Assembly: GCA_000308255.3 (NCBI GenBank)
Contig: HG326663.1
Span: 391,522 to 455,521, forward strand
Direction of reading: 5' to 3'
DNA: 64,000 nt
Source of the DNA: Anaerococcus pacaensis 9403502
GTDB taxonomy: Bacteria > Bacillota > Clostridia > Tissierellales > Peptoniphilaceae
In this document: positions 13,685 to 26,030 of the stretch, one piece after another
Position numbering within the stretch: the first letter of the stretch is position 1
Layout of the letters: every line of letters starts with the position of its first letter
Notes under the pieces: generated by a model
What the model was told of the DNA's origin: nothing
The model's input: only the letters and a program-made list of their open reading frames with translations
Databases searched by the model: none
Translations under genes and position numbers: made by a program

Positions 13685-16495
13685 TTATTTGCTCATACCG
13701 TAAGCCACACTTGCTTCAGTGTTTACGACTTTTAAGGTAGTCACAAAGTCCTTTTTCCAGACGCCGAAATCAGCTCCAGAATATCTGATACTAGCCTTGC
13801 CATCTACGAAGTTTACTGTATTGATTCGAGTTGTTCCGTCAGATACAGTTTCTACTATTCCCATGCCTGTGTATGGGTAGCCGTCTTCGTAAGCTTCAAA
13901 GCTTAGGGTGAAATATCCATTTTTCCTTTGGCCCACTCTGATGTCCCCGAGATCATAGTATTTTGGGCTAAGGCCTGTTACGTAGCTTGGGTATTGTCTG
14001 ATAAATGGCTTAGACTTACTATCTTTTGAGAATTCATAGACTAAGACATCATTGATGTCACGTAGTTTTAATTCAGTTACAAAGTTTGTTCTCCACACGG
14101 CAAATTGTCCACCATGGTAGGTGATGCTAGCTTCCCCGTTTTTGAAGTAAACTGTAGATGTTTTTTCTACTTGTCCATATTCTTCATTGCCAGCCTTAGT
14201 TGTGATAGTTGCAGGTCCGTTGTAGCCTTGCCCATTTTGATGAGCCTTTAGGTTGATGGTAAAGTATCCAGCATCTCTATCAGATACGCTAAATTCAGTA
14301 AGTTCTACTGGGTAATTGGCAAAGTCTGGTAGAACTCTGACATTTACTGATTTGATGATGTTATTTGTAGTCTTTACAGTCAGAGTAGTCTTTCCTATTT
14401 GATGAGCTGTTACCAGGCCATTTTCATCAATACTTGCTATCTCTGGATTCTTTGATTCGTAGGAAAACTTTCTCCTAGCTGTGTCTGGATAGACAGTTAT
14501 TTTTTCAGCTAAGTTTAGTATTTCTCCTTCCACAAGGTTTGCTTGTGGGATTTTGATAGACATGTTTCTTATCACAAATGGATCTTCGTATGGTTTTGGA
14601 GGATCTGGGAATTTCTCAGTATCTTCGATTTCACCATTTTCATAAAGTTCGTTTGGACCTATGACTGGGATTTCATTTAGCTTGGTAAAGCGCATGTCCT
14701 TTGGTATGATTTCTAGGTTAAATCTAGCACGGAGGATACCACGAGAGACTCTGGTTTCTACTAGAATATTGGCTGTACCGATTTTCTTTGGAACGATAAC
14801 TCCATCTGGTAGAACATCAACAACATCTGTATCTAGGGTGTAGATTTTGATGGCTACATTTTCTATATTAGATGGTTCAACTATTGGTGTTAGCTTACCG
14901 GTGTTATTTATTCTAAGGTAGCCGCCAGCGCCTTCTGCTACAGAGATGTTTTTCACTTCTAGTGTTGGCTCTGGCATATTTGGGTCTACTGGGAAATCAT
15001 CATCTTCTATGACTTCGCCTGTGGTTGTGATAGCCTTTAGGCATACATTGGCACCCTTTAACTCTGTAGAAAGGTCAGCCCATTTTTGGCCATCGCTTGA
15101 TACGAATGATTGACCTGGTAGGGAGTCAGCCTTTGATGAGAAGTTTGGAATTTTCGCTTCTACGGCTAGCGGATATCTGTAGTTTGCCTTAGATGAATCC
15201 AAATGAGCCATCACGGCAAATTGTTCGCCTTCTTCAAGCTCTATGTGTGAAATATCGATGGTGTAGTAGCCTGGGTATTGGAGAGTTCCAGATGCTACTT
15301 CGATTTTTTCACTATCTAGTTGGCTGGTTCTTTCGATGTTTCTTACTACATATAGCTTGTAGTCTGTGTACATGCTGACATTGAAAAGGCCTATTTCGTG
15401 TAGGGTTTCCTTGCTATCTGCCTTGAAGATATTACACATATAGCCTTGTTTGTTGTAGCCTACAGATCTAGTGGCACCAAATGGGTCGTATTGGTAAATG
15501 CGGCCATTAGGGTCTTTTTTCTTTGCTATAAAACAAGCATTGGACTTACCTGCAAAGGCATCTTCGTAGGATACATAGTAATAGCCATTTTCCATATAAG
15601 ATGGACCCCATGAGTTCTTGCAAATCCAAGCTCCATCTGCCTTTGGTTTAATAGAAAATAGTTCTTTAGGGAAGGTGTCATCCCAACCAACTATGGTCAC
15701 CGCGTGATCATCTGTGCCGCCACCTGGATTAAAGTAAGAGTAGTTTCTTGCATTTTCATAGTATTTGGAACTATTGATAGTAGTATAAACCCCACCATGT
15801 TCCATAACTGCTAGTTTGATGTCGGTTGTGTCTACGAAATTATAAACATCTGGTAGATATAAAACTTTATCGATATCTAGCATCCTGTCTACATCTGTAG
15901 GAGATACTGAGATAACTGGGTCATACATATCATCTTTTTCACTAACTGGGCCTGACCACCTAGCCATATATGCTGCGGCAATATCTCTATTGCCCCCATC
16001 ATTTGGACCCCAGTCAAAGCCGTGGGTGTTTCTAAGGTGCTTTTCAGAAAAATCAAATTTGCCGTATTTGCTTAGGACTGATTCCATGGATCCATAGGTA
16101 GCAAAGGCCCAGCAAGACCCGTTTTTACCTTGGTTTTTAACAGGAGATACTCTGTTCATGAGTCTAAGGTCATAAGTTTCTGGTAGTTTTGTTGATTTTG
16201 CTCTCGTTCTAGTCTTTATATAATCAAAGTTTACCTCCAGAGGTGAAACTTTTTCGCCAGATTGTTGGGCGCTATAGAATTCTTCTGATATAGGGCTTAT
16301 CTCGAGGCTGTGGTTTTCACCTGCTGTATCAAGATATATATCGGTAGGATCTGGGGCTATTTCTAACTGTGGGATAAGCTCAGCCTCTTGGCTTTCTACT
16401 TCTAAGCTTAGAGGGCTAGAAGCAAGCACCATATTAGCCGGCATTATCATAGATCCTGCTAGTAACAGGGCTAATAATTTATTTCTCTTTTTCAA
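13685..16495 (-). CDS. Secreted papain-family (C1) cysteine protease with Ig-like repeats
   Basis: 936 residues from a TTG start with AAGGA five bases before it. Signal peptide about 1-25, a pro-region to about 105, then a C1 domain with the oxyanion Gln122, nucleophile Cys128 (NQGKNGSCWAFATYG), His264 (DDHAVTIVGWDD) and Asn294 (CKNSWG). Residues about 310-480 look like the lectin-like domain that follows C1 in clostridial relatives. Then a beta-rich linker, a Big_2-type domain near 645-730, and two copies of an 85-95-residue module at the C-terminus, shared with the CAMP fusion. No LPXTG or surface-layer motif, so probably released. Second gene of the secreted operon, 45 bases after the 1017-aa paralogue. 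Confidence 0.9.
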   Translation of the reverse strand: MKKRNKLLALLLAGSMIMPANMVLASSPLSLEVESQEAELIPQLEIAPDPTDIYLDTAGENHSLEISPISEEFYSAQQSGEKVSPLEVNFDYIKTRTRAKSTKLPETYDLRLMNRVSPVKNQGKNGSCWAFATYGSMESVLSKYGKFDFSEKHLRNTHGFDWGPNDGGNRDIAAAYMARWSGPVSEKDDMYDPVISVSPTDVDRMLDIDKVLYLPDVYNFVDTTDIKLAVMEHGGVYTTINSSKYYENARNYSYFNPGGGTDDHAVTIVGWDDTFPKELFSIKPKADGAWICKNSWGPSYMENGYYYVSYEDAFAGKSNACFIAKKKDPNGRIYQYDPFGATRSVGYNKQGYMCNIFKADSKETLHEIGLFNVSMYTDYKLYVVRNIERTSQLDSEKIEVASGTLQYPGYYTIDISHIELEEGEQFAVMAHLDSSKANYRYPLAVEAKIPNFSSKADSLPGQSFVSSDGQKWADLSTELKGANVCLKAITTTGEVIEDDDFPVDPNMPEPTLEVKNISVAEGAGGYLRINNTGKLTPIVEPSNIENVAIKIYTLDTDVVDVLPDGVIVPKKIGTANILVETRVSRGILRARFNLEIIPKDMRFTKLNEIPVIGPNELYENGEIEDTEKFPDPPKPYEDPFVIRNMSIKIPQANLVEGEILNLAEKITVYPDTARRKFSYESKNPEIASIDENGLVTAHQIGKTTLTVKTTNNIIKSVNVRVLPDFANYPVELTEFSVSDRDAGYFTINLKAHQNGQGYNGPATITTKAGNEEYGQVEKTSTVYFKNGEASITYHGGQFAVWRTNFVTELKLRDINDVLVYEFSKDSKSKPFIRQYPSYVTGLSPKYYDLGDIRVGQRKNGYFTLSFEAYEDGYPYTGMGIVETVSDGTTRINTVNFVDGKASIRYSGADFGVWKKDFVTTLKVVNTEASVAYGMSK

Positions 16496-16540: not shown

Positions 16541-19500
16541 TTATCTAGCTACTCTAAAGCTATATTCTTCACTTATTTGTTTATAAGTGTCTCTATCAAC
16601 TGTCAGCTTAAGCTTGTAGTCGCCTTCATTTAGGGCAGGACCTGTAAAGCTTACCTTGCCTGTGTAGGTAGTAGTGCATGTGCTAGTGCTTAGGACCTTG
16701 CCATTGCTATCTTCGATGCTAAATTTCACATTTGCATATCTTAGATTTAGGTTTTTCTCATCTTTGATATGGGCTGTAAAGCATGGACGAGTCCTTGGTT
16801 TGTAAGTAGACTTTAGGTCTAACATACTAAGGGACATTGGCTTGCTATTATTGTCGATGAATTCCACATCAAAACTTGCATCAAGGTTGCCAATTGAATC
16901 ATCCTTAGTCCTTACTTCTACAGTATAGACCCCAGCCTTCATACTAGAGTTTGGCTCGATGTACATGCTGGTATTGCCATTGTAGTCTGTAGTTTTTTCT
17001 ATGTCGTAGATGAAATTATTAGGACCAGTTACTCTTATAGCAAGTCTAGCATTTCTGACTGGCCTTTGTTCCGCATCTTTTAGACTTAGCCTGATGTTTG
17101 CACGATCACCATAGTAGTAGATTTTCTTATCAAAGTTATATAAGAGTTTTAGACTCATATCTTTTTCTTTGACCACGAAGTTTATACTATTTTCGGCTAT
17201 ATGAGTGTTGGTTCTGGCTCTTACTAATACCTGATAAGTACCAGCCTTAGCACTAACATCTGGGCTGTAATTGTAAGTGGTCATCCCATTATAATTAGTG
17301 GTGCCAGTATTTTTATGAACTGCACCATCTGGGGTAGTGATTTCAATATCTACTCTGGCATTTGGGATAGCCCTACCTTGCATGTGTGTTTGAATCTTGA
17401 TAGGGATTCTTTCTCCCTTTTCGTATTCATCTTTATCTGTACTTAGCTTTATGTCTAATACATTATTAGGCTCTGGAGTATTTGTATCTCCGATTGTAAT
17501 ATCATATGAATTGTTATAATCTTCAAATGTATCCCCAGTCACCCTTACATTTAGTTTATAAGTACCTGCTTGGCTGATGTGGCGGGTATCCAAGTCTACT
17601 TTGAAATTACCATTTTGGTCGGTGTAGGCTTCTTTGCTGGCTCCTCCTGCTAGGCTTACGTTTACTAGAGCGTAGCGGAGGTTTCTTTGGTATTTGTCAC
17701 GGACATTTACTGTGACTGGAAGAGACTGGCCTAGTTCTAGATTTTCTTTTGGTAAATAGACATTTACATTGAAGATATTGCCTTGGTTGTAATCAGCTTT
17801 ACTCACGGTGACATTGACGCTAGTTGCAACCCCAGATCCATCTGTAGCTGAGATTGTGATAGTTGCAGATCCTTCTCTAAGGGCTCTGACTTCTCCATTT
17901 GAACTAACAGTAGCTACATAAGTGTTAGATGATGCATAGCTTAGGTTTTTATTGCTAGCATCTGTTGGTAGGGCCTCAGCGCTAATGTTTTCTCTACCGC
18001 CGATTGTAAGATTGATAAGGTCCTTATCCACCGATATGCTTTGGACTTTTTTATCTCTTACAATAGGATCTATAGGTGTGTTATCTATATAGCCTGAGCC
18101 GCTAGGCTTGGTGAAGGCCTTGACACAGACATTAGTGTTGGCCATTTGGTTGGTGACATCTGACCAGTTGTAGCCATCATAAGAGATGTATGATTGTCCT
18201 CTGGCTGCGGTAGCTCTTGATGAATAGCCCCAAATTGGTTTTTCAACTGGTATTGGGTATGGGTAACCTGTTGTAGTGAATTTTACAATTGGTGCGAAGT
18301 ATGCACCATTTGGAATTTGTTGTGGTCTAAATTTGACTGTTTGATATCCTGCAAAATCAAATTTACCGCTAGCTACTAGTACCCTGTTATTAAAGCCGCT
18401 ATTGCCACCGATATTAGTGTTAACGTATATTTCGTAGGAGACATTGTTGGTTGGAACAAAGATCCCCACTTCAGATATTTCTATATTTTGCTTGGCTGGA
18501 CCAAATACATTTGAGAACCAGCCTACGCTTCCTCTACCTATATTTGAAGTCATCCCAAGGTAGTCGTGGTACCAAATAGATTTATTAGCTTCTTTGTTTT
18601 TTAGGATGAAGATACAATTGCTCTTTGCTATGTGGGCATCATAGTAGGATACGTAGTAATATCCGCCTTGAGTTCCCCAATGAGACCCCCAAGAGTTTTT
18701 ACATATCCAAGCCCCATTGCCAGGAGCTCCCCATTTGAAATTTGATGCGCTGTAGTTATCATCCCAACCTACTATGGTCACCGCGTGGTTAGCATAACCT
18801 TGTCCAGGGTTGTTGTGGCCCATGGTGTACATGTTGGTATAGTATTCGCTACCATTTACAACTGTGTAGGCTGCCCCGTAGTCCATAATTGCTTCCTTTA
18901 GGACTCTGGCATCATTTTGATTTCTAACATCTGGTATATAGAGGGCCTTATCTAATTCTTTGACAGGGCGAAGGCCCGCTGGAGAATAGAAATCATAAGG
19001 GCTATATGGCTCATCTCTTTCAGAGATTGGTCCTGCCCACCTAGATAGGTAGGCTGCTGATACTTGGTTGGTACCACCATCTTTTGGACCCCAGTCGTAG
19101 CCATGGGTATTTCTAAGGTTCTTTTCAGAAAAGTCTGTATTCTCACGTGGAAGTAGCACTGATTCAGCAGACCCATATGTGGCAAAGGCCCAGCAAGAAC
19201 CATTTGGTCCTTGGTTTCTCATTGGTGTCACTCTACCAAAATTTCTTAGGTCGTATTGGGCTGGTATAAATGAGGCCTTTTGCCTATTTGGCACTTCTTC
19301 TTCAAGTGTGTCATAGTCGGTGTAAATCTTTAATGGATCGACATTTAAACCAAATTTCTCAGCCTCATCAGCAGTTTCTTGCCTATTAAATTCTGGATTG
19401 ATAGGAGCTTGATCTATCTCTAGCTCATCTACTAATAAATCATCGTCTAAATAAAAATCGGAGCTTGATACTTCAAGTCCACCGCTATTATCTATTGCAT

Positions 19501-19594
19501 CATTTTCTATAGCATAAGCTTTGATTGGCGGATTTGCTGCCACAAGGCTTAGGGCCAAAAATAAGGCCAAGAATGATTTTCTATTGTGTTTCAT
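16541..19594 (-). CDS. Secreted papain-family (C1) cysteine protease with four macroglobulin-like repeats
   Basis: 1017 residues. Signal peptide 1-28 (AYA), acidic pro-region, C1 domain with Gln128, Cys134 (PNGSCWAFATYG), His270 (YANHAVTIVGWDD) and Asn300 (CKNSWG): a complete catalytic set. A lectin-like region follows (about 320-500), then a Big_2 domain (512-600), then four repeats of about 95 residues with Y..G...I.I.........A.V.I, TT.YNG and AGTY.V.V patterns, resembling MG2/Ig-like stalk domains. First gene of the secreted run; ribosome site AAAGGTGG. It begins about 170 bases after the terminator of the repeat-peptide gene, so it has its own promoter. Likely a host- or neighbour-directed protease. 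Confidence 0.9.
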   Translation of the reverse strand: MKHNRKSFLALFLALSLVAANPPIKAYAIENDAIDNSGGLEVSSSDFYLDDDLLVDELEIDQAPINPEFNRQETADEAEKFGLNVDPLKIYTDYDTLEEEVPNRQKASFIPAQYDLRNFGRVTPMRNQGPNGSCWAFATYGSAESVLLPRENTDFSEKNLRNTHGYDWGPKDGGTNQVSAAYLSRWAGPISERDEPYSPYDFYSPAGLRPVKELDKALYIPDVRNQNDARVLKEAIMDYGAAYTVVNGSEYYTNMYTMGHNNPGQGYANHAVTIVGWDDNYSASNFKWGAPGNGAWICKNSWGSHWGTQGGYYYVSYYDAHIAKSNCIFILKNKEANKSIWYHDYLGMTSNIGRGSVGWFSNVFGPAKQNIEISEVGIFVPTNNVSYEIYVNTNIGGNSGFNNRVLVASGKFDFAGYQTVKFRPQQIPNGAYFAPIVKFTTTGYPYPIPVEKPIWGYSSRATAARGQSYISYDGYNWSDVTNQMANTNVCVKAFTKPSGSGYIDNTPIDPIVRDKKVQSISVDKDLINLTIGGRENISAEALPTDASNKNLSYASSNTYVATVSSNGEVRALREGSATITISATDGSGVATSVNVTVSKADYNQGNIFNVNVYLPKENLELGQSLPVTVNVRDKYQRNLRYALVNVSLAGGASKEAYTDQNGNFKVDLDTRHISQAGTYKLNVRVTGDTFEDYNNSYDITIGDTNTPEPNNVLDIKLSTDKDEYEKGERIPIKIQTHMQGRAIPNARVDIEITTPDGAVHKNTGTTNYNGMTTYNYSPDVSAKAGTYQVLVRARTNTHIAENSINFVVKEKDMSLKLLYNFDKKIYYYGDRANIRLSLKDAEQRPVRNARLAIRVTGPNNFIYDIEKTTDYNGNTSMYIEPNSSMKAGVYTVEVRTKDDSIGNLDASFDVEFIDNNSKPMSLSMLDLKSTYKPRTRPCFTAHIKDEKNLNLRYANVKFSIEDSNGKVLSTSTCTTTYTGKVSFTGPALNEGDYKLKLTVDRDTYKQISEEYSFRVAR

Positions 19595-19763: not shown

Positions 19764-19796
19764 GAAAAAGAGATAAAGGCAGCTAGCCTTTATCTG
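19764..19796 (-). terminator. Terminator of the repeat-peptide gene
   Basis: On the minus strand AGATAAAGGC-TAGCT-GCCTTTATCT (perfect 10-bp stem, 19771-19795) followed by CTTTTTC. It isolates the peptide gene from the protease operon. Confidence 0.85.
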
Positions 19797-19810: not shown

Positions 19811-20059
19811 TTAATAAATAGAAATAGGTTCTGTTTTTGGAGCTAGTCTATAAATTGAGATTGGCTCGTGTTTTGGTGTAGATCTATAGATTGAAATCGG
19901 TTCATGTTTTGGTGTAGAACTATAAATTGAGATTGGTTCATGCTTTGGTCCCCTTGCATAGCCGTAAGAACTAGCATGAGCTGGTTGCTTTGTACTAGCA
20001 AATATGGTTATACCAAATATTAAGAGTGTGCATAATTTTTTAATATTTTTTATTTTCAT
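19811..20059 (-). CDS. Secreted tandem-repeat pro-peptide, candidate pheromone precursor, 82 aa
   Basis: The ATG at 20057-20059 has AAAGGA 8 bases upstream. Product: basic start, hydrophobic core (LCTLLIFGITIF) and AHA-SS signal-peptidase site (about residue 29), a short SYGYARG linker, then four units: PKHEPISIYSST, PKHEPISIYRST, PKHEPISIYRLA and a terminal PKTEPISIY ending at the stop codon. Nothing else is encoded. This is what a multi-copy peptide precursor would look like; the mature form might be EPISIY or KHEPISIY. It lies directly downstream of an RNPP-type regulator, the standard partner of such peptides, and upstream of secreted virulence-type genes. The frame is open up to 20134, but that start lies in the regulator's stop codon before a terminator, so I reject it. 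Signalling is inference; a surface or binding peptide is the alternative. Confidence 0.7.
   Translation of the reverse strand: MKIKNIKKLCTLLIFGITIFASTKQPAHASSYGYARGPKHEPISIYSSTPKHEPISIYRSTPKHEPISIYRLAPKTEPISIY
19814..19948. repeat. Four in-frame 36-bp repeats encoding PKHEPISIYRST units
   Basis: 3.75 units of 36 bp, each encoding 12 residues. Silent and conservative differences between units, with the KHEPISIY core nearly invariant (the last unit has KTEPISIY), argue for selection on the peptide rather than fresh slippage. Confidence 0.85.
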
Positions 20060-20081
20060 ATCTATCATCCTTTCACTGCTA

Positions 20082-20087
20082 ATTATA
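20082..20087 (-). promoter_or_regulatory. -10 element of the repeat-peptide gene
   Basis: Minus-strand TATAAT about 23 bases before the peptide ATG. The expected -35 window (about 20104-20110) reads TTACTT, a poor match lying in the T tract of the upstream terminator. A good -10 with a weak -35 is typical of activator-dependent promoters. Confidence 0.45.
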
Positions 20088-20099
20088 TAAGATATTGAT

Positions 20100-20130
20100 A
20101 AAAAAGTAACCCCACAGTTTTGTGGGGTTA
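20100..20130 (-). terminator. Hairpin between regulator and peptide genes
   Basis: Minus-strand AACCCCACA-AAAC-TGTGGGGTT (perfect 9-bp stem) then ACTTTTTT, starting 1 base after the regulator stop codon. It works as an intrinsic terminator; because it abuts the peptide promoter it could also be a dyad operator. Confidence 0.75.
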
Positions 20131-21027
20131 TCATTCGCTTAGTATTTGATCTACACTTTCTTTAATTATAAGCTTCAAATCTGGCTTAATCATCATATCG
20201 CATAGCCTTAGAGAGCTTTCAATATCTTCCATATATCCTGGATCATCAGCTTTGAATTTGCTTATCCCCAGTAGATAGTAGACAAGGATTATCCTTCTAT
20301 AATTATTGGTCAGAGAACTTAGTTCAAGTGCCTCACTACAAATATTTATAGATTTTTTATAATTTTCTTTCATATAGTTATACTTTGCCAAGTTATATAA
20401 GATGTCTATATAGTTAGTATCTGTAGTTTCCAGATTATCTACTAGGAAGTCTAAGATCAATTTAGAATCGGAATTGTGTTTAGCATGGATGTAATATTCT
20501 GAAAGCTTGATTAATATACGCTTTTCAATATCATTATAATAATGCTTGAAGCCTTCCTCTATAGGTTTGCCGTTTATTCTCAATGCATCAAGCATCAAGT
20601 CTTTGTATTTATCGAAGTTTTTATTGATATCTTTTTCGTAAACGCCTTGATAATACAAAATGTATTGGTTAAGCTTAGTGTGATATGAACTAGGCAATAG
20701 GTCTTCAAAACTTTTTAGTTTTTCTATGTCTTCGCCTAGCCTCTCGAGCGACAAATTTTCTAAAGTATTATCGATTTTATTAATTTGCTGAGCCACCATA
20801 TTCCACGAAGACCCGCAGTCATCCATGAGGATAATTTCAAAATCAATGCCCAGGACCTCAAGGATATCAAGGAAATTATCTACACGTGGGTTGTTGTGAT
20901 TATTTTCTATCCTACGCAAACTTTCTTCAGACATACCAACCATTTCGGCCAAGTCCTTCTGAGAAATGTTCCTATTTTTTCTAATTCTCCTAATTTCGCT
21001 ACCTATAAAACTATAATCGTATGACAT
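20131..21027 (-). CDS. RNPP-type (Rgg/PlcR-like) HTH-TPR transcriptional regulator
   Basis: 298 residues: an XRE helix-turn-helix at about 7-62 (IRRIRKNRNISQKDLAEMVG, then SEESLRRIENN), then an all-helical C-terminal region of about 230 residues with TPR-like pairs (YNLAKYNYMKENYKKSINIC; YYLLGISKFKADDPGYMEDI). Length and layout match Rgg, PlcR, PrgX and NprR, which bind secreted, re-imported oligopeptides in the TPR groove. The ribosome site is a strong GGGGGG tract and a promoter lies at 21075-21103. A gene for a secreted tandem-repeat peptide follows on the same strand after a hairpin. Family membership is judged from architecture; an XRE regulator with a TPR domain of other function remains possible. 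Confidence 0.8.
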   Translation of the reverse strand: MSYDYSFIGSEIRRIRKNRNISQKDLAEMVGMSEESLRRIENNHNNPRVDNFLDILEVLGIDFEIILMDDCGSSWNMVAQQINKIDNTLENLSLERLGEDIEKLKSFEDLLPSSYHTKLNQYILYYQGVYEKDINKNFDKYKDLMLDALRINGKPIEEGFKHYYNDIEKRILIKLSEYYIHAKHNSDSKLILDFLVDNLETTDTNYIDILYNLAKYNYMKENYKKSINICSEALELSSLTNNYRRIILVYYLLGISKFKADDPGYMEDIESSLRLCDMMIKPDLKLIIKESVDQILSE

Positions 21028-23692: not shown

Positions 23693-24277
23693 TTATTCTA
23701 ACTCATCCCCAATATCTTCAGCTCTAATTTCATCAAAATCTTCATATCTATAAGACTGGTCAAGTCCTTTCATAAATACATCTCTATCGCTAATTTCATC
23801 TGTAAGAGCGGCTCTCAGTAAATCTTTAATATATTTGCTTTTGACCGGGCTAAGTTTCATAAATTCTAGGTAATCAAATTTGTCAACTTTTTGCCAATCT
23901 ATAACCTTTCCCAGGTTTTTCTTAAGCATCAAGTCTAGCCAAATCCTAGTAGCCCTACCATTGCCTTCTATGAATGGATGGGCTACATTCATTTCTACAT
24001 ACTTATCTAAGATGAGATCAAAATCATCTTCTGGCATTGCTTCGATTGCTTGAAGAGCTGGGATAAGATACATAGAATTTGCAAATCTGAAATTGCCCTT
24101 AGATATATTTACATCCCTTATCTCACCAGCATCATAGCCATCTATATCATGAAAGAGAGCATAATGAATATCCCTAAGTCCCTTTACAGTACCTACTTCT
24201 ATATCATCTATTTCTCCACTATCCCAAAGTTCTATGGCCCTTTTTTTGCTGATGTACTCTTCATTACTCGCCTGCAT
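23693..24277 (-). CDS. Fic-domain AMP-transferase, class III-like
   Basis: 194 residues with the complete Fic motif HPFIEGNGRATR (H-P-F-x2-G-N-G-R-x2-R) near 103-114, the catalytic His and anion-hole residues for transferring AMP or another phosphonucleotide to Ser/Thr/Tyr targets. Near the C-terminus QSYRYED matches the class III inhibitory motif S-x3-E-(G/N) except for Asp at the last position, so autoinhibition in cis is expected. The ATG at 24277 follows AGGGGTGG; a GTG two codons earlier is possible. A broken copy lies at 32348-32650. Target unknown. Confidence 0.9.
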   Translation of the reverse strand: MQASNEEYISKKRAIELWDSGEIDDIEVGTVKGLRDIHYALFHDIDGYDAGEIRDVNISKGNFRFANSMYLIPALQAIEAMPEDDFDLILDKYVEMNVAHPFIEGNGRATRIWLDLMLKKNLGKVIDWQKVDKFDYLEFMKLSPVKSKYIKDLLRAALTDEISDRDVFMKGLDQSYRYEDFDEIRAEDIGDELE

Positions 24278-24388
24278 AACCACCCCTATTACTATCCTTA
24301 TTTAAATTTATTATTGATATTATACTCCGATATGAACATTAGCATTATATAATCAACAAAGGTCAACAATTTCTAACCAATGAAAATA

Positions 24389-25192
24389 CTACTCCCATCT
24401 TTTATTAAAATGACTATTATCAGCCAAAATCTCCTTGAAGATTATATCTCCATAATGTTCTGTTAGTTGAATAGCCATAATCGGATCATCTCCAAAATCT
24501 TGGTTTTGTGGATTAGAAACATGATAGGCTCCGTAGATTCCCATAATCCTTTTATCTTCTAGTCTATCAAGTTCATAAATAAAATTTTCGACAAGCTTTT
24601 CTTCACGAAAATCCGCCATTTTTCTTATGTAGTGGACAGCTATATCCGTATTTAAATATTTCTCGTAAGTTGCATTTCTATAGTTCCCATCTTCCATCAC
24701 TTGTTTGACTCTTTGGATTTCCTCTTCGTTAACTGATTCAGATTCTTTTAAGTAACCTAGGTAAGCCTCTCCCAGGCTATCCGAAAAATAACTAATATCT
24801 GTCCCATAAAAAACCGTCTCTGGGCATTCATCTCTTATTTTCTCAAGAAAATCTTTATAATAATTCGCCCCAGAAACATCTCCATAATCTATTGCAAGAA
24901 GCCTTAAAATCTCATCATCTCCTGTTTCTAACCATAAATTCAACAGCCCCGCCTCAAAATTAGCAAGCTCTAAAAATAAATTTCTCATCCCATGCTGGTG
25001 GTAATAACTATGCCAAAGCTCATATTCACGGGCTACCAAATCTTCTTGGCCGTGGATTTCACCGTAAAGATAGATTTGTTGATTCTTGTTGTAATCAGAC
25101 AAATCTCTATCAGCTCTATTGGTGCAACCCCCTATAAGTAAAAGGCTTGCTAGACTAATAAGTATCTTAAAAAGATTTTTCTTTACTTTCAT
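24389..25192 (-). CDS. Lipoprotein of the EreA/ChaN/TraB-like superfamily (1)
   Basis: 267 residues with a lipobox (LLIGGC) and short polar linker. The core motifs YGEIHG, LFLELANFEA, VFYGTD and MGIYGAYHV are spaced as in the EreA/ChaN/TraB/Tiki group, where paired GxxH and Glu residues form a metal or haem site. It could be a surface hydrolase or haem-binding protein. It follows its paralogue by 13 bases, so the two are co-transcribed. The superfamily assignment is by motif memory and moderate; the substrate is unknown. Confidence 0.6.
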   Translation of the reverse strand: MKVKKNLFKILISLASLLLIGGCTNRADRDLSDYNKNQQIYLYGEIHGQEDLVAREYELWHSYYHQHGMRNLFLELANFEAGLLNLWLETGDDEILRLLAIDYGDVSGANYYKDFLEKIRDECPETVFYGTDISYFSDSLGEAYLGYLKESESVNEEEIQRVKQVMEDGNYRNATYEKYLNTDIAVHYIRKMADFREEKLVENFIYELDRLEDKRIMGIYGAYHVSNPQNQDFGDDPIMAIQLTEHYGDIIFKEILADNSHFNKRWE

Positions 25193-25205
25193 GATAAATT
25201 TAACA

Positions 25206-26030
25206 TCACCTACTTCTCTTTACATCCTCGATAGTCATATCCTTATATTTATTAAGAGATACCTCATCATATAGTAATCGAGTATAAATTATATCTCCAT
25301 AGTGGGCTCTAAGCTGGTCTGCCATATTAGGATCTTGAGGACCTTCAATTTTACGACTATTATCAACGTGGTAGCCACCATAAATACCCATCACTCTTTT
25401 ATCATCGAGCTTATCAAATTCATAGATAAAGTTCTCTACTAACTTACCCTCCCTATAGTCCATAATTTTACCAAATTTATCAGGATCCTCAATATAGTTA
25501 TACCAATGTTCCCCTTGCTTCATAACTTCTTTTACCCTCTTATATCTATCCATATCGAAAGGTTTTTGGTCTCTCAAATACTCCAAATATAACTCACCAG
25601 TTGTATCAAATAGGTGGCCAACATCAGTCCCATAAAATACTGTCTCAGGGCATTCATTCTTAATTTTTTCATAAAACTCTCTTAGATAAATACTTGATCC
25701 AAAAGTATTAGCCGAATTTTCAAAAATCATATCCAAAATTTCATCGCTATCTTCTTTCATCCATTCATTTAAAAAGTATGCATCGAAGTTACCAGCTTCT
25801 ATAAAAAGATTCCTCATGCCATGATTGTCATAAAAATATTTCCACAACTCATACTCTTCTAAAATTTGTTCTTCTACAGCATGCATTTCTCCATAGAGAT
25901 AAATTTGCTTATCATTACTGTATTCTTCCCCTTGCCTCATACTACATCCCGCTAGGAAAATAAGGGCAAATATAAGAACAGATAATGGCTTAATAATTTT
26001 TTTAAATATTGATTGATAATTCTTTCTCAT
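25206..26030 (-). CDS. Lipoprotein of the EreA/ChaN/TraB-like superfamily (2)
   Basis: 274 residues, lipobox LIFLAGC near residue 30. YGEMHAVEEQ, LFIEAGNFDA, VFYGTDVGHL and MGIYGGYHV line up one for one with the downstream paralogue, so both GE-x-H and G-x-YH sites are conserved. Overall the two are clearly homologous but diverged, pointing to an old tandem duplication kept by selection, in contrast to the decayed duplicates farther along. Upstream of it lies a fragment of the 55-aa membrane-protein gene. Confidence 0.6.
   Translation of the reverse strand: MRKNYQSIFKKIIKPLSVLIFALIFLAGCSMRQGEEYSNDKQIYLYGEMHAVEEQILEEYELWKYFYDNHGMRNLFIEAGNFDAYFLNEWMKEDSDEILDMIFENSANTFGSSIYLREFYEKIKNECPETVFYGTDVGHLFDTTGELYLEYLRDQKPFDMDRYKRVKEVMKQGEHWYNYIEDPDKFGKIMDYREGKLVENFIYEFDKLDDKRVMGIYGGYHVDNSRKIEGPQDPNMADQLRAHYGDIIYTRLLYDEVSLNKYKDMTIEDVKRSR

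Follow-up and report, generated by a model that had tools for sequence, protein, structure and literature searches.

A putative peptide-pheromone pair, a PlcR-like regulator and a precursor with tandem EPISIY motifs, in Anaerococcus pacaensis

The stretch of DNA considered here, 64,000 nucleotides (nt) of contig HG326663.1 of Anaerococcus pacaensis 9403502 and referred to below as the window, carries on its reverse strand a gene for a regulator of the RNPP type, followed closely by a small gene for a protein built from four units that each contain the hexapeptide EPISIY (Table 1). A perfectly conserved palindrome lies between the two genes, and two genes for C1 (papain-like) cysteine proteases follow downstream. 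Regulator and precursor are likely to be a pair for peptide-based quorum sensing, of the RRNPPA kind, as suggested at the sequence level by the helix-turn-helix (HTH) domain of the regulator, by its PlcR homology, by the row of EPISIY motifs that ends at the stop codon and by the joint inheritance of both genes, and at the level of structure prediction by a PlcR-like fold of tetratricopeptide repeats (TPRs).

The precursor gene starts 71 nt past the stop codon of the regulator gene, and in its product a hydrophobic start and a linker lead to the four EPISIY-containing units, the last of which ends at the stop codon. The units read PKHEPISIY-SST, PKHEPISIY-RST, PKHEPISIY-RLA and PKTEPISIY-stop, and their period of 36 nt is also detectable in the DNA by repeat search, with 64-nt repeat copies sharing 73 and 77% identity with the reference copy. 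Other in-frame ATG codons occur upstream of the start retained here, the longest reading comprising 107 residues and overlapping the last codons of the regulator; the Shine-Dalgarno region of the retained start, TGAAAGGA, is invariant in all four loci compared below. The putative signal peptide shows a weak match to the NCBIfam family PhrA_Strep (E-value 0.014, 15.6 bits for a cut-off of 40). Behind the gene, a terminator of the form GATAAAG...CTTTAT with a TCTTTTT tail is retained in the alignment of four species, the TCTTTTT being invariant.

Among 31 Anaerococcus genomes searched, orthologs of the regulator at 66-69% identity were found in three further genomes (G011, G012 and G023), and the precursor lies directly downstream of the regulator in all four genomes, the window's own included. 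Confident matches of the precursor occurred in those four genomes only, two matches at E-values of 0.12 and 0.15 being left uncounted. Together with eight sequences from the protein database, among which are close variants of the genomic ones, this gives 12 precursor sequences, all of which have EPISIY as their C-terminal end; the stop codon after the motif was seen in the four genomes, where PISIY is followed by TAA, the other eight sequences being protein records. Depending on the precursor, four copies (two cases), two copies (nine cases) or a single copy of EPISIY occur, so that 11 of the 12 possess two or four, and each of the 15 internal copies is directly followed by Ser or Arg. In G012 and G023, as well as in the protein records P0045, P0046, P0047 and P0048, the motif has been lost over the length of one unit in the middle, the first and last copies remaining intact. 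The residues that precede the motif vary (PKH, PQI, PKT, PET, SQI, SEV, PPI, GET) and the conserved core is therefore EPISIY.

The EPISIY peptide is kept while its DNA diverges. The ten EPISIY units of the four species occur in eight distinct DNA versions differing by at least seven substitutions, all synonymous, with the proviso that these units were chosen by the motif and that two of the 12 slots, namely the degenerate middle ones in G012 and G023, were omitted, which makes the synonymy partly a matter of construction. Taken by position, the first and last units read EPISIY in eight cases out of eight, with at least five substitutions, all of them synonymous, an outcome with a chance probability of about 0.0005-0.001. 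Across the 130 genomes of the family, the string PISIY followed by TAA is found in eight. Occurrences of EPISIY beyond the focal genomes were considered and rejected: the six matches, located in four genomes, equal in number those of the backward control pattern (six) and none, by reading, ends a plausible secreted precursor, so that they are attributed to chance.

A sequence-only reading of the window had described the 82-residue frame with four units downstream of a 298-residue regulator and a peptide seemingly selected over its DNA, and sequence, open reading frames, repeats and comparison with other species bear out both statements. The expectation that the closest relatives of the regulator would adjoin repeat-peptide precursors also holds. 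The same reading had taken KHEPISIY as the conserved unit, which has to be shortened to EPISIY since KH varies among the precursors.

The N-terminal HTH_3 domain of the regulator scores 57.1 bits for a Pfam cut-off of 23, in agreement with the HTH at the N-terminus of RRNPPA receptors of the Rgg, NprR, PlcR, PrgX and AimR types. Its C-terminal domain is predicted to form a TPR superhelix closest to that of PlcR, as had been anticipated from the sequence. The model obtained with AlphaFold2 (mean predicted local distance difference test score 86.7, predicted template-modelling score 0.75) finds its best fold match in the PlcR-PapR7-DNA structure (PDB code 3u3w), the next rows including Rap, NprR and ComR; matches to TPR proteins devoid of any signalling role (APC/C, LGN and others) were discounted as reflecting a common TPR arrangement. 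A profile built from 33 sequences aligns to PlcR over profile positions 8-296 (E-value 1.1e-20), the identity between regulator and PlcR being about 18%, and the single TPR matches of Pfam stay below cut-off. With its 298 residues and its predicted all-helical repeat domain, the protein falls within the 250-500 residues and the TPR superhelix characteristic of RRNPPA receptors. The family RNPP_C (PF18768) appears in the precomputed family lists of 15 out of 40 relatives.

The region between both genes is dominated by a 29-nt block whose first 24 nt form the palindrome, a feature that the sequence-only reading had not foreseen. In three genomes the TAA of the palindrome is the stop codon of the regulator, and in the window the palindrome starts right after the TGA. 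The block does not vary among the four species, the identity between their regulators being 66-89%. It represents the longest invariant run in the four-species alignment of 1,276 columns, the next one comprising 11 nt, and column shuffling gave a run of this length once in 20,000 trials, a figure to be taken as a guide because columns are not independent. Each of the four genomes that possess the system contains the element once, and none of the 27 other genomes of the genus contains it at up to three mismatches. In RNA form, the palindrome would fold into a hairpin of -15.6 kcal/mol (z -5.3) followed by a T-run, also called by the terminator scan, and would thus terminate the message of the regulator. 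A TATAAT hexamer stands 19 nt past the palindrome in all four loci, and in none of them is it preceded by a proper -35 element, that place being taken by the palindrome's end and the T-run; the good -10 and poor -35 noticed at first in the window alone are thus common to all. With this spacing, any -35 element would share positions with the last part of the palindrome. Owing to its identity in four species and its fixed distance to the -10 element, the palindrome is likely to serve also as operator of the precursor gene. A palindrome located on the stop codon of the regulator, should the regulator bind it, would be an unusual layout, no literature search having been aimed at such elements. One further, imperfect site with two mismatches lies on contig C6 of the same genome. 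In the window itself, no additional 22-mer site occurs at up to three mismatches, and the pattern CCACAN4TGTGG, at two mismatches, is found 12 times for 12.4 expected, i.e., at chance level.

Table 1. Features of the EPISIY locus and of its surroundings, with positions in the window unless residues are indicated.
Feature	Position	Strand	Remarks
RNPP-type regulator gene	20131..21027	-	298-residue open reading frame
HTH_3 domain of the regulator	residues 12-64		N-terminal; Pfam E-value 1.9e-15
C-terminal domain of the regulator	about residues 66-298		all-helical, TPR-like, by prediction
29-nt block TAACCCCACAAAACTGTGGGGTTACTTTT	20102..20130	-	predicted regulator terminator; candidate operator of the precursor gene
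24-bp palindrome	20107-20130	-	first 24 nt of the block; 10-bp arms, 4-nt centre
TATAAT, -10 element of the precursor promoter	20082..20087	-	by sequence
Shine-Dalgarno-like AAAGGA	20068..20073	-	by sequence
Pheromone precursor gene (putative)	19811..20059	-	82 residues from the ATG after AAAGGA
Putative signal peptide	19973..20059	-	as judged by eye: starts K-rich, has CTLLIFGITIF as core and AHA ahead of S30
EPISIY copy 1	19922..19939	-	
EPISIY copy 2	19886..19903	-	
EPISIY copy 3	19850..19867	-	
EPISIY copy 4	19814..19831	-	ends at stop codon
Terminator 3' of the precursor gene	19771..19795	-	terminator scan
Protease 1	16541..19594	-	1017 residues; C1 (papain-like) with Lectin_like, MG2, Big_1, Big_2 (Pfam); candidate target
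Protease 2	13685..16495	-	936 residues; C1 with Lectin_like, Big_2 (Pfam); candidate target
Fic/DOC-family protein gene	23693-24283	-	Pfam Fic E-value 1.2e-11; motif HPFIEGNGR
Tandem gene 1, likely lipoprotein	24389-25192	-	267 residues
Tandem gene 2, likely lipoprotein	25206-26030	-	274 residues

In the scheme that would account for these features, the precursor is presumably exported by means of its N-terminal segment, after which signal peptidase and extracellular proteases would free one EPISIY from the C-terminus and further ones from the repeats inside the precursor, each of which would have to be cut once more behind its Tyr, the next residue always being Ser or Arg. EPISIY, the likely density-sensing signal of the cells, would be taken up by an oligopeptide permease (the genome was checked for the presence of oligopeptide-binding proteins of the SBP_bac_5 family) and bound by the PlcR-like regulator. 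A dimer of the regulator would recognize the palindrome at its own stop codon, overlapping the place of the -35 element, and its peptide-bound form would activate the precursor promoter in a positive loop, the same palindrome ending the regulator transcript once copied into RNA. The loop may, less firmly, have the adjacent C1 proteases as its output, wholly or in part; the operator and protease steps are both less sure than the pheromone pair itself. A more elaborate version, in which the palindrome cumulates the roles of RNA terminator, single operator and -35 substitute, the co-inherited protease is both output and maturase of the internal copies, and copy number (1-4) sets with the protease the gain of a protease-gated loop, is unlikely to hold.

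The closest published counterpart is the PlcR-PapR system of the Bacillus cereus group, which likewise associates an HTH-TPR receptor of about 285-300 residues, the closest in fold and matched over its full length by the profile, with a precursor gene carrying the signal at the C-terminus. The peptides themselves, LPFEF for PlcR and EPISI here, both follow a Pro-hydrophobic-polar-hydrophobic order. The active boxes of PlcR, 28 in number, precede a -10 element (PMC2464732), as compared to one palindrome site per genome here. Unlike in PlcR-PapR, the palindrome has another sequence, is located at the stop codon of the regulator and is also a predicted terminator, and the precursor contains one to four EPISIY copies. 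In spite of the closest structure and the full-length homology, no PlcR box was found near the precursor at up to one mismatch, and the regulator is accordingly filed as a PlcR-like member of the RRNPPA proteins and not in the PlcR subfamily.

Multi-copy precursors, for which the sequence-only reading knew of few bacterial parallels, are in fact no rarity in bacteria: a propeptide belonging to an AimR, NprR, PlcR or Rap system is reported to contain up to six peptide copies (PMC9765709), and a maximum of eight is given elsewhere (PMC11343458), where two duplicated phage Phr propeptides were also shown to be processed. The precursor with its four copies, whose release would follow the scheme given above, is one of these multi-copy propeptides, i.e., those with at least two mature-peptide copies, and is thus not a novelty in this respect. 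As in Phr105, Phr3T and the NprR, AimR and PlcR propeptides, several copies are present and the last one is C-terminal; several of the variants described here differ in having a degenerate middle unit between intact first and last copies. The multi-copy subfamilies have been assigned to Bacillales (PMC9765709), whereas Anaerococcus belongs to the order Tissierellales. RRNPP_detector looks for receptors of 250-500 residues with TPRs and an adjacent secreted propeptide of 10-100 residues (PMC10075063), a description with which the pair agrees as far as it can be checked, the export signal of the propeptide being judged by eye. In the same source, a single quorum-linked cluster of genes is listed for the Peptoniphilaceae, the family of Anaerococcus (PMC10075063). 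The literature search, outside of which most subscription papers fell, yielded no paper on Anaerococcus with RRNPP or peptide quorum sensing. This kind of system is known from other bacteria, and the present lineage and peptide were not found described. The earlier peptide-pheromone reading is supported; the comparative evidence is stronger, and the system less unusual, than at first supposed.

Relatives of the regulator indicate that the EPISIY pair is not isolated. At E-values of 1e-25 or better, 25 matches occur in 15 of the 130 genomes of the family; two of them are fragments of one interrupted copy, L066 gave a partial frame, and the other 22 were placed on a tree. The EPISIY clade (support 99/98) has as its sister the regulator of locus L061 (99/98), at 46% identity, where a single-copy precursor ending in QIPISIYSL lies between the regulator and the gene of a circular bacteriocin of the circularin A/uberolysin family (Bacteriocin_IId, E-value 5e-10; TIGR03651, E-value 1e-20). 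Locus L061 is likely to encode a peptide-controlled bacteriocin. A clade of six regulators (L053, L056, L065, L067, L068, L069; 54-84% mutual identity) shows in all six cases, 83-84 nt past the stop codon, a gene for a peptide of 40-51 residues with a hydrophobic start and related ends such as EHIIDIFYLA and EDLIIDIYC, and probably represents a second peptide-receptor family in the genus. A weaker CCAC/GTG element occurs there at a similar place (TGTGT in six of six, TCCAC in five of six), with folding energies of -1.4 to -3.5 kcal/mol that are no better than those of shuffled sequences, so that it is no terminator by folding. Four other regulators directly precede genes of the lactococcin-972 type, identified by Pfam for L062 and L063 and by reading for L052 and L055. 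At L060, L049 and L050 the palindrome is of another sequence and a clear precursor is lacking; none of these neighbour patterns is seen in the other four. Anaerobic cocci of this genus thus offer a concrete peptide (EPISIY) with its presumed receptor and candidate operator, along with several such pairs, some of them beside bacteriocins (EPISIY, PISIYSL and an IIDxFY-like group), so that signal-receptor specificity may be compared within a single genus. The natural variation of copy number around a fixed core likewise makes a dosage role of the repeats testable.

Several observations weigh against the proposed scheme. The RNPP_C family scores 14.2 bits for the regulator, and 24.5 and 23.5 bits for its relatives P0009 and L062, all below the cut-off of 26.5. 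The PlcR box TATGnAnnnnTnCATA was not found between 7890 and 22868 at up to one mismatch, the near-matches elsewhere in the window amounting to 8 for 6.65 expected by chance. No second copy of the palindrome occurs near the proteases, which are separated from the precursor by a terminator, and the degeneration of the middle unit in two of the four genomes implies that four intact copies are not essential. The CCAC/GTG motif is absent from the four outlying regulators. Finally, hairpins devoid of this motif lie on the stop codons of two lactococcin-clade regulators, L052 (-9.1 kcal/mol) and L055 (-5.8 kcal/mol), the other two regulators of that clade showing -1.2 and -4.2 kcal/mol.

These hairpins, to which that of L060 on or just after the stop codon may be added, and the strength of the palindrome hairpin with its T-run, suggest that the palindrome could be a terminator only, the precursor promoter being constitutive and the regulator acting elsewhere. 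Such a reading is rather unlikely on the whole: a terminator needs pairing and not identity, yet the four species agree in 29 nt out of 29, the 4-nt centre not excepted; the element occurs once per genome at a fixed distance from the -10 element; and the weaker CCAC/GTG element recurs in related clades. A variant of the pheromone pair in which the peptide inhibits the regulator, in a repressor or anti-activator mode, has a precedent in AimP, which blocks DNA binding by AimR (PMC9232636), but a palindrome in the -35 place in front of a good -10 element suits an activator, and the closest fold is that of the activator PlcR, whose active boxes also stand before a -10; inhibition is accordingly held to be improbable. 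A further variant, compatible with the pair and given little credence, follows the arbitrium system, in which AimR reportedly acts by antitermination, the terminator lying between aimP and aimX (PMC10769878): a regulator positioned near the palindrome, itself a strong predicted terminator between both genes, would permit read-through into the precursor gene. Against it, TATAAT follows the hairpin at a constant spacing in all four loci, and the element of the six-regulator clade keeps its TGTGT and, in five of six loci, its TCCAC while lacking terminator folding. AimR-AimP also resembles the EPISIY pair by its receptor, its secreted hexapeptide and the terminator involved in regulation (PMC10769878, PMC6458997), and differs in being phage-borne, the search of phage and viral collections having revealed no relatives of the present regulator. 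That the repeat protein is a secreted effector, antimicrobial or surface peptide, merely placed beside its regulator is most improbable, for although related regulators adjoin bacteriocins (of the circularin/uberolysin type at L061 and, according to Pfam/NCBIfam, of the lactococcin 972 type at L062 and L063, with L052 and L055 looking alike by reading), the bacteriocin of L061 is a gene separate from the PISIYSL precursor that lies between it and the regulator, the kept core is a six-residue stretch that closes the C-terminus, as in PapR7, and the copy number varies from one to four around a constant core.

Returning to the proposed peptide-activated loop, its candidate targets are the two downstream C1 cysteine proteases, both likely secreted. 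Adjacent orthologs of protease 1 occur at 75% identity in G012 and G023, with a relative at 59% elsewhere in G011, and, among the 31 genomes, orthologs of protease 2, at 81-83%, occupy the same locus in the other three EPISIY genomes, the next best relative (47%) being found in G004. These distributions amount to co-inheritance at one locus, which is no proof of control; the region before protease 1, read in three genomes, contains no shared palindrome of the present type. SpeB is a cysteine protease of a family other than that of the C1 proteases beside this pair. The RopB-SIP-SpeB system of Streptococcus pyogenes, in which a peptide-sensing receptor controls secreted SpeB (PMC6565748), offers a likeness in that two cysteine proteases adjoin the pair as candidate targets; its SIP peptide is leaderless, unlike the present precursor with its putative signal peptide. 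Both proteases resemble Cwp84 of Clostridioides difficile in the succession of a C1 protease and a lectin-like domain, and, in the available part of its description, Cwp84 is not tied to a peptide-signal locus (PMC4089489), whereas the present proteases lie beside a candidate one. Cleavage by Cwp84 involves a Lys at P2. A similar cleavage of the precursor by the neighbouring protease was considered and found unsupported, as it fits PKH and PKT and does not fit PQI, PET, SQI, SEV, PPI and GET.

A mobile origin of the regulator was likewise considered and rejected: no relative was found in viral_contigs (36 pattern stretches), no match in phages, and one HTH-only match among 72,556 plasmid records.

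Some additional features of the related loci deserve mention. The L061 regulator (L061 / L041, in G023) is encoded at 9216-10103 of L041 on the reverse strand; beyond the bacteriocin gene lie, among others, genes for a SpoIIM-domain protein and, by reading, the ATPase of an ATP-binding cassette (ABC) transporter, and genes resembling those of an oligopeptide permease, also by reading, occur about 3-9 kb away on the same contig. In the six-regulator clade, four of the six loci directly follow an mnmA-like gene (by reading), and a gene for a long, likely secreted protein comes after each peptide gene. L002 / L060 is a paralog of the regulator (41%) in the same genome (C1:708953-709831), placed by reading between an RsbV/RsbW/SigB-like operon, which precedes it, and an ABC transporter, with the palindrome ACCTGCA...TGCGGGT just after its stop codon. 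A frame of 17 codons (MEKLF...) resembling a short hydrophobic peptide (SHP) follows L060, L049 and L050 and was weighed as a candidate signal; its -10-like sequence overlaps the start codon and the frame changes residues. Near L012/L049, the counterpart of the L060 regulator, a PqqD-like protein (22.8 bits for a cut-off of 23.4) and, by reading, a radical-SAM-like protein are encoded. An interrupted related regulator followed by a palindrome-like element occurs at L014 / L051 / L064 (G007). In the window, the first of two tandem genes located beyond a gene for a Fic/DOC-family protein (Table 1) was the one scanned, and showed no Pfam family above cut-off; the two tandem genes are similar to each other and likely encode lipoproteins.
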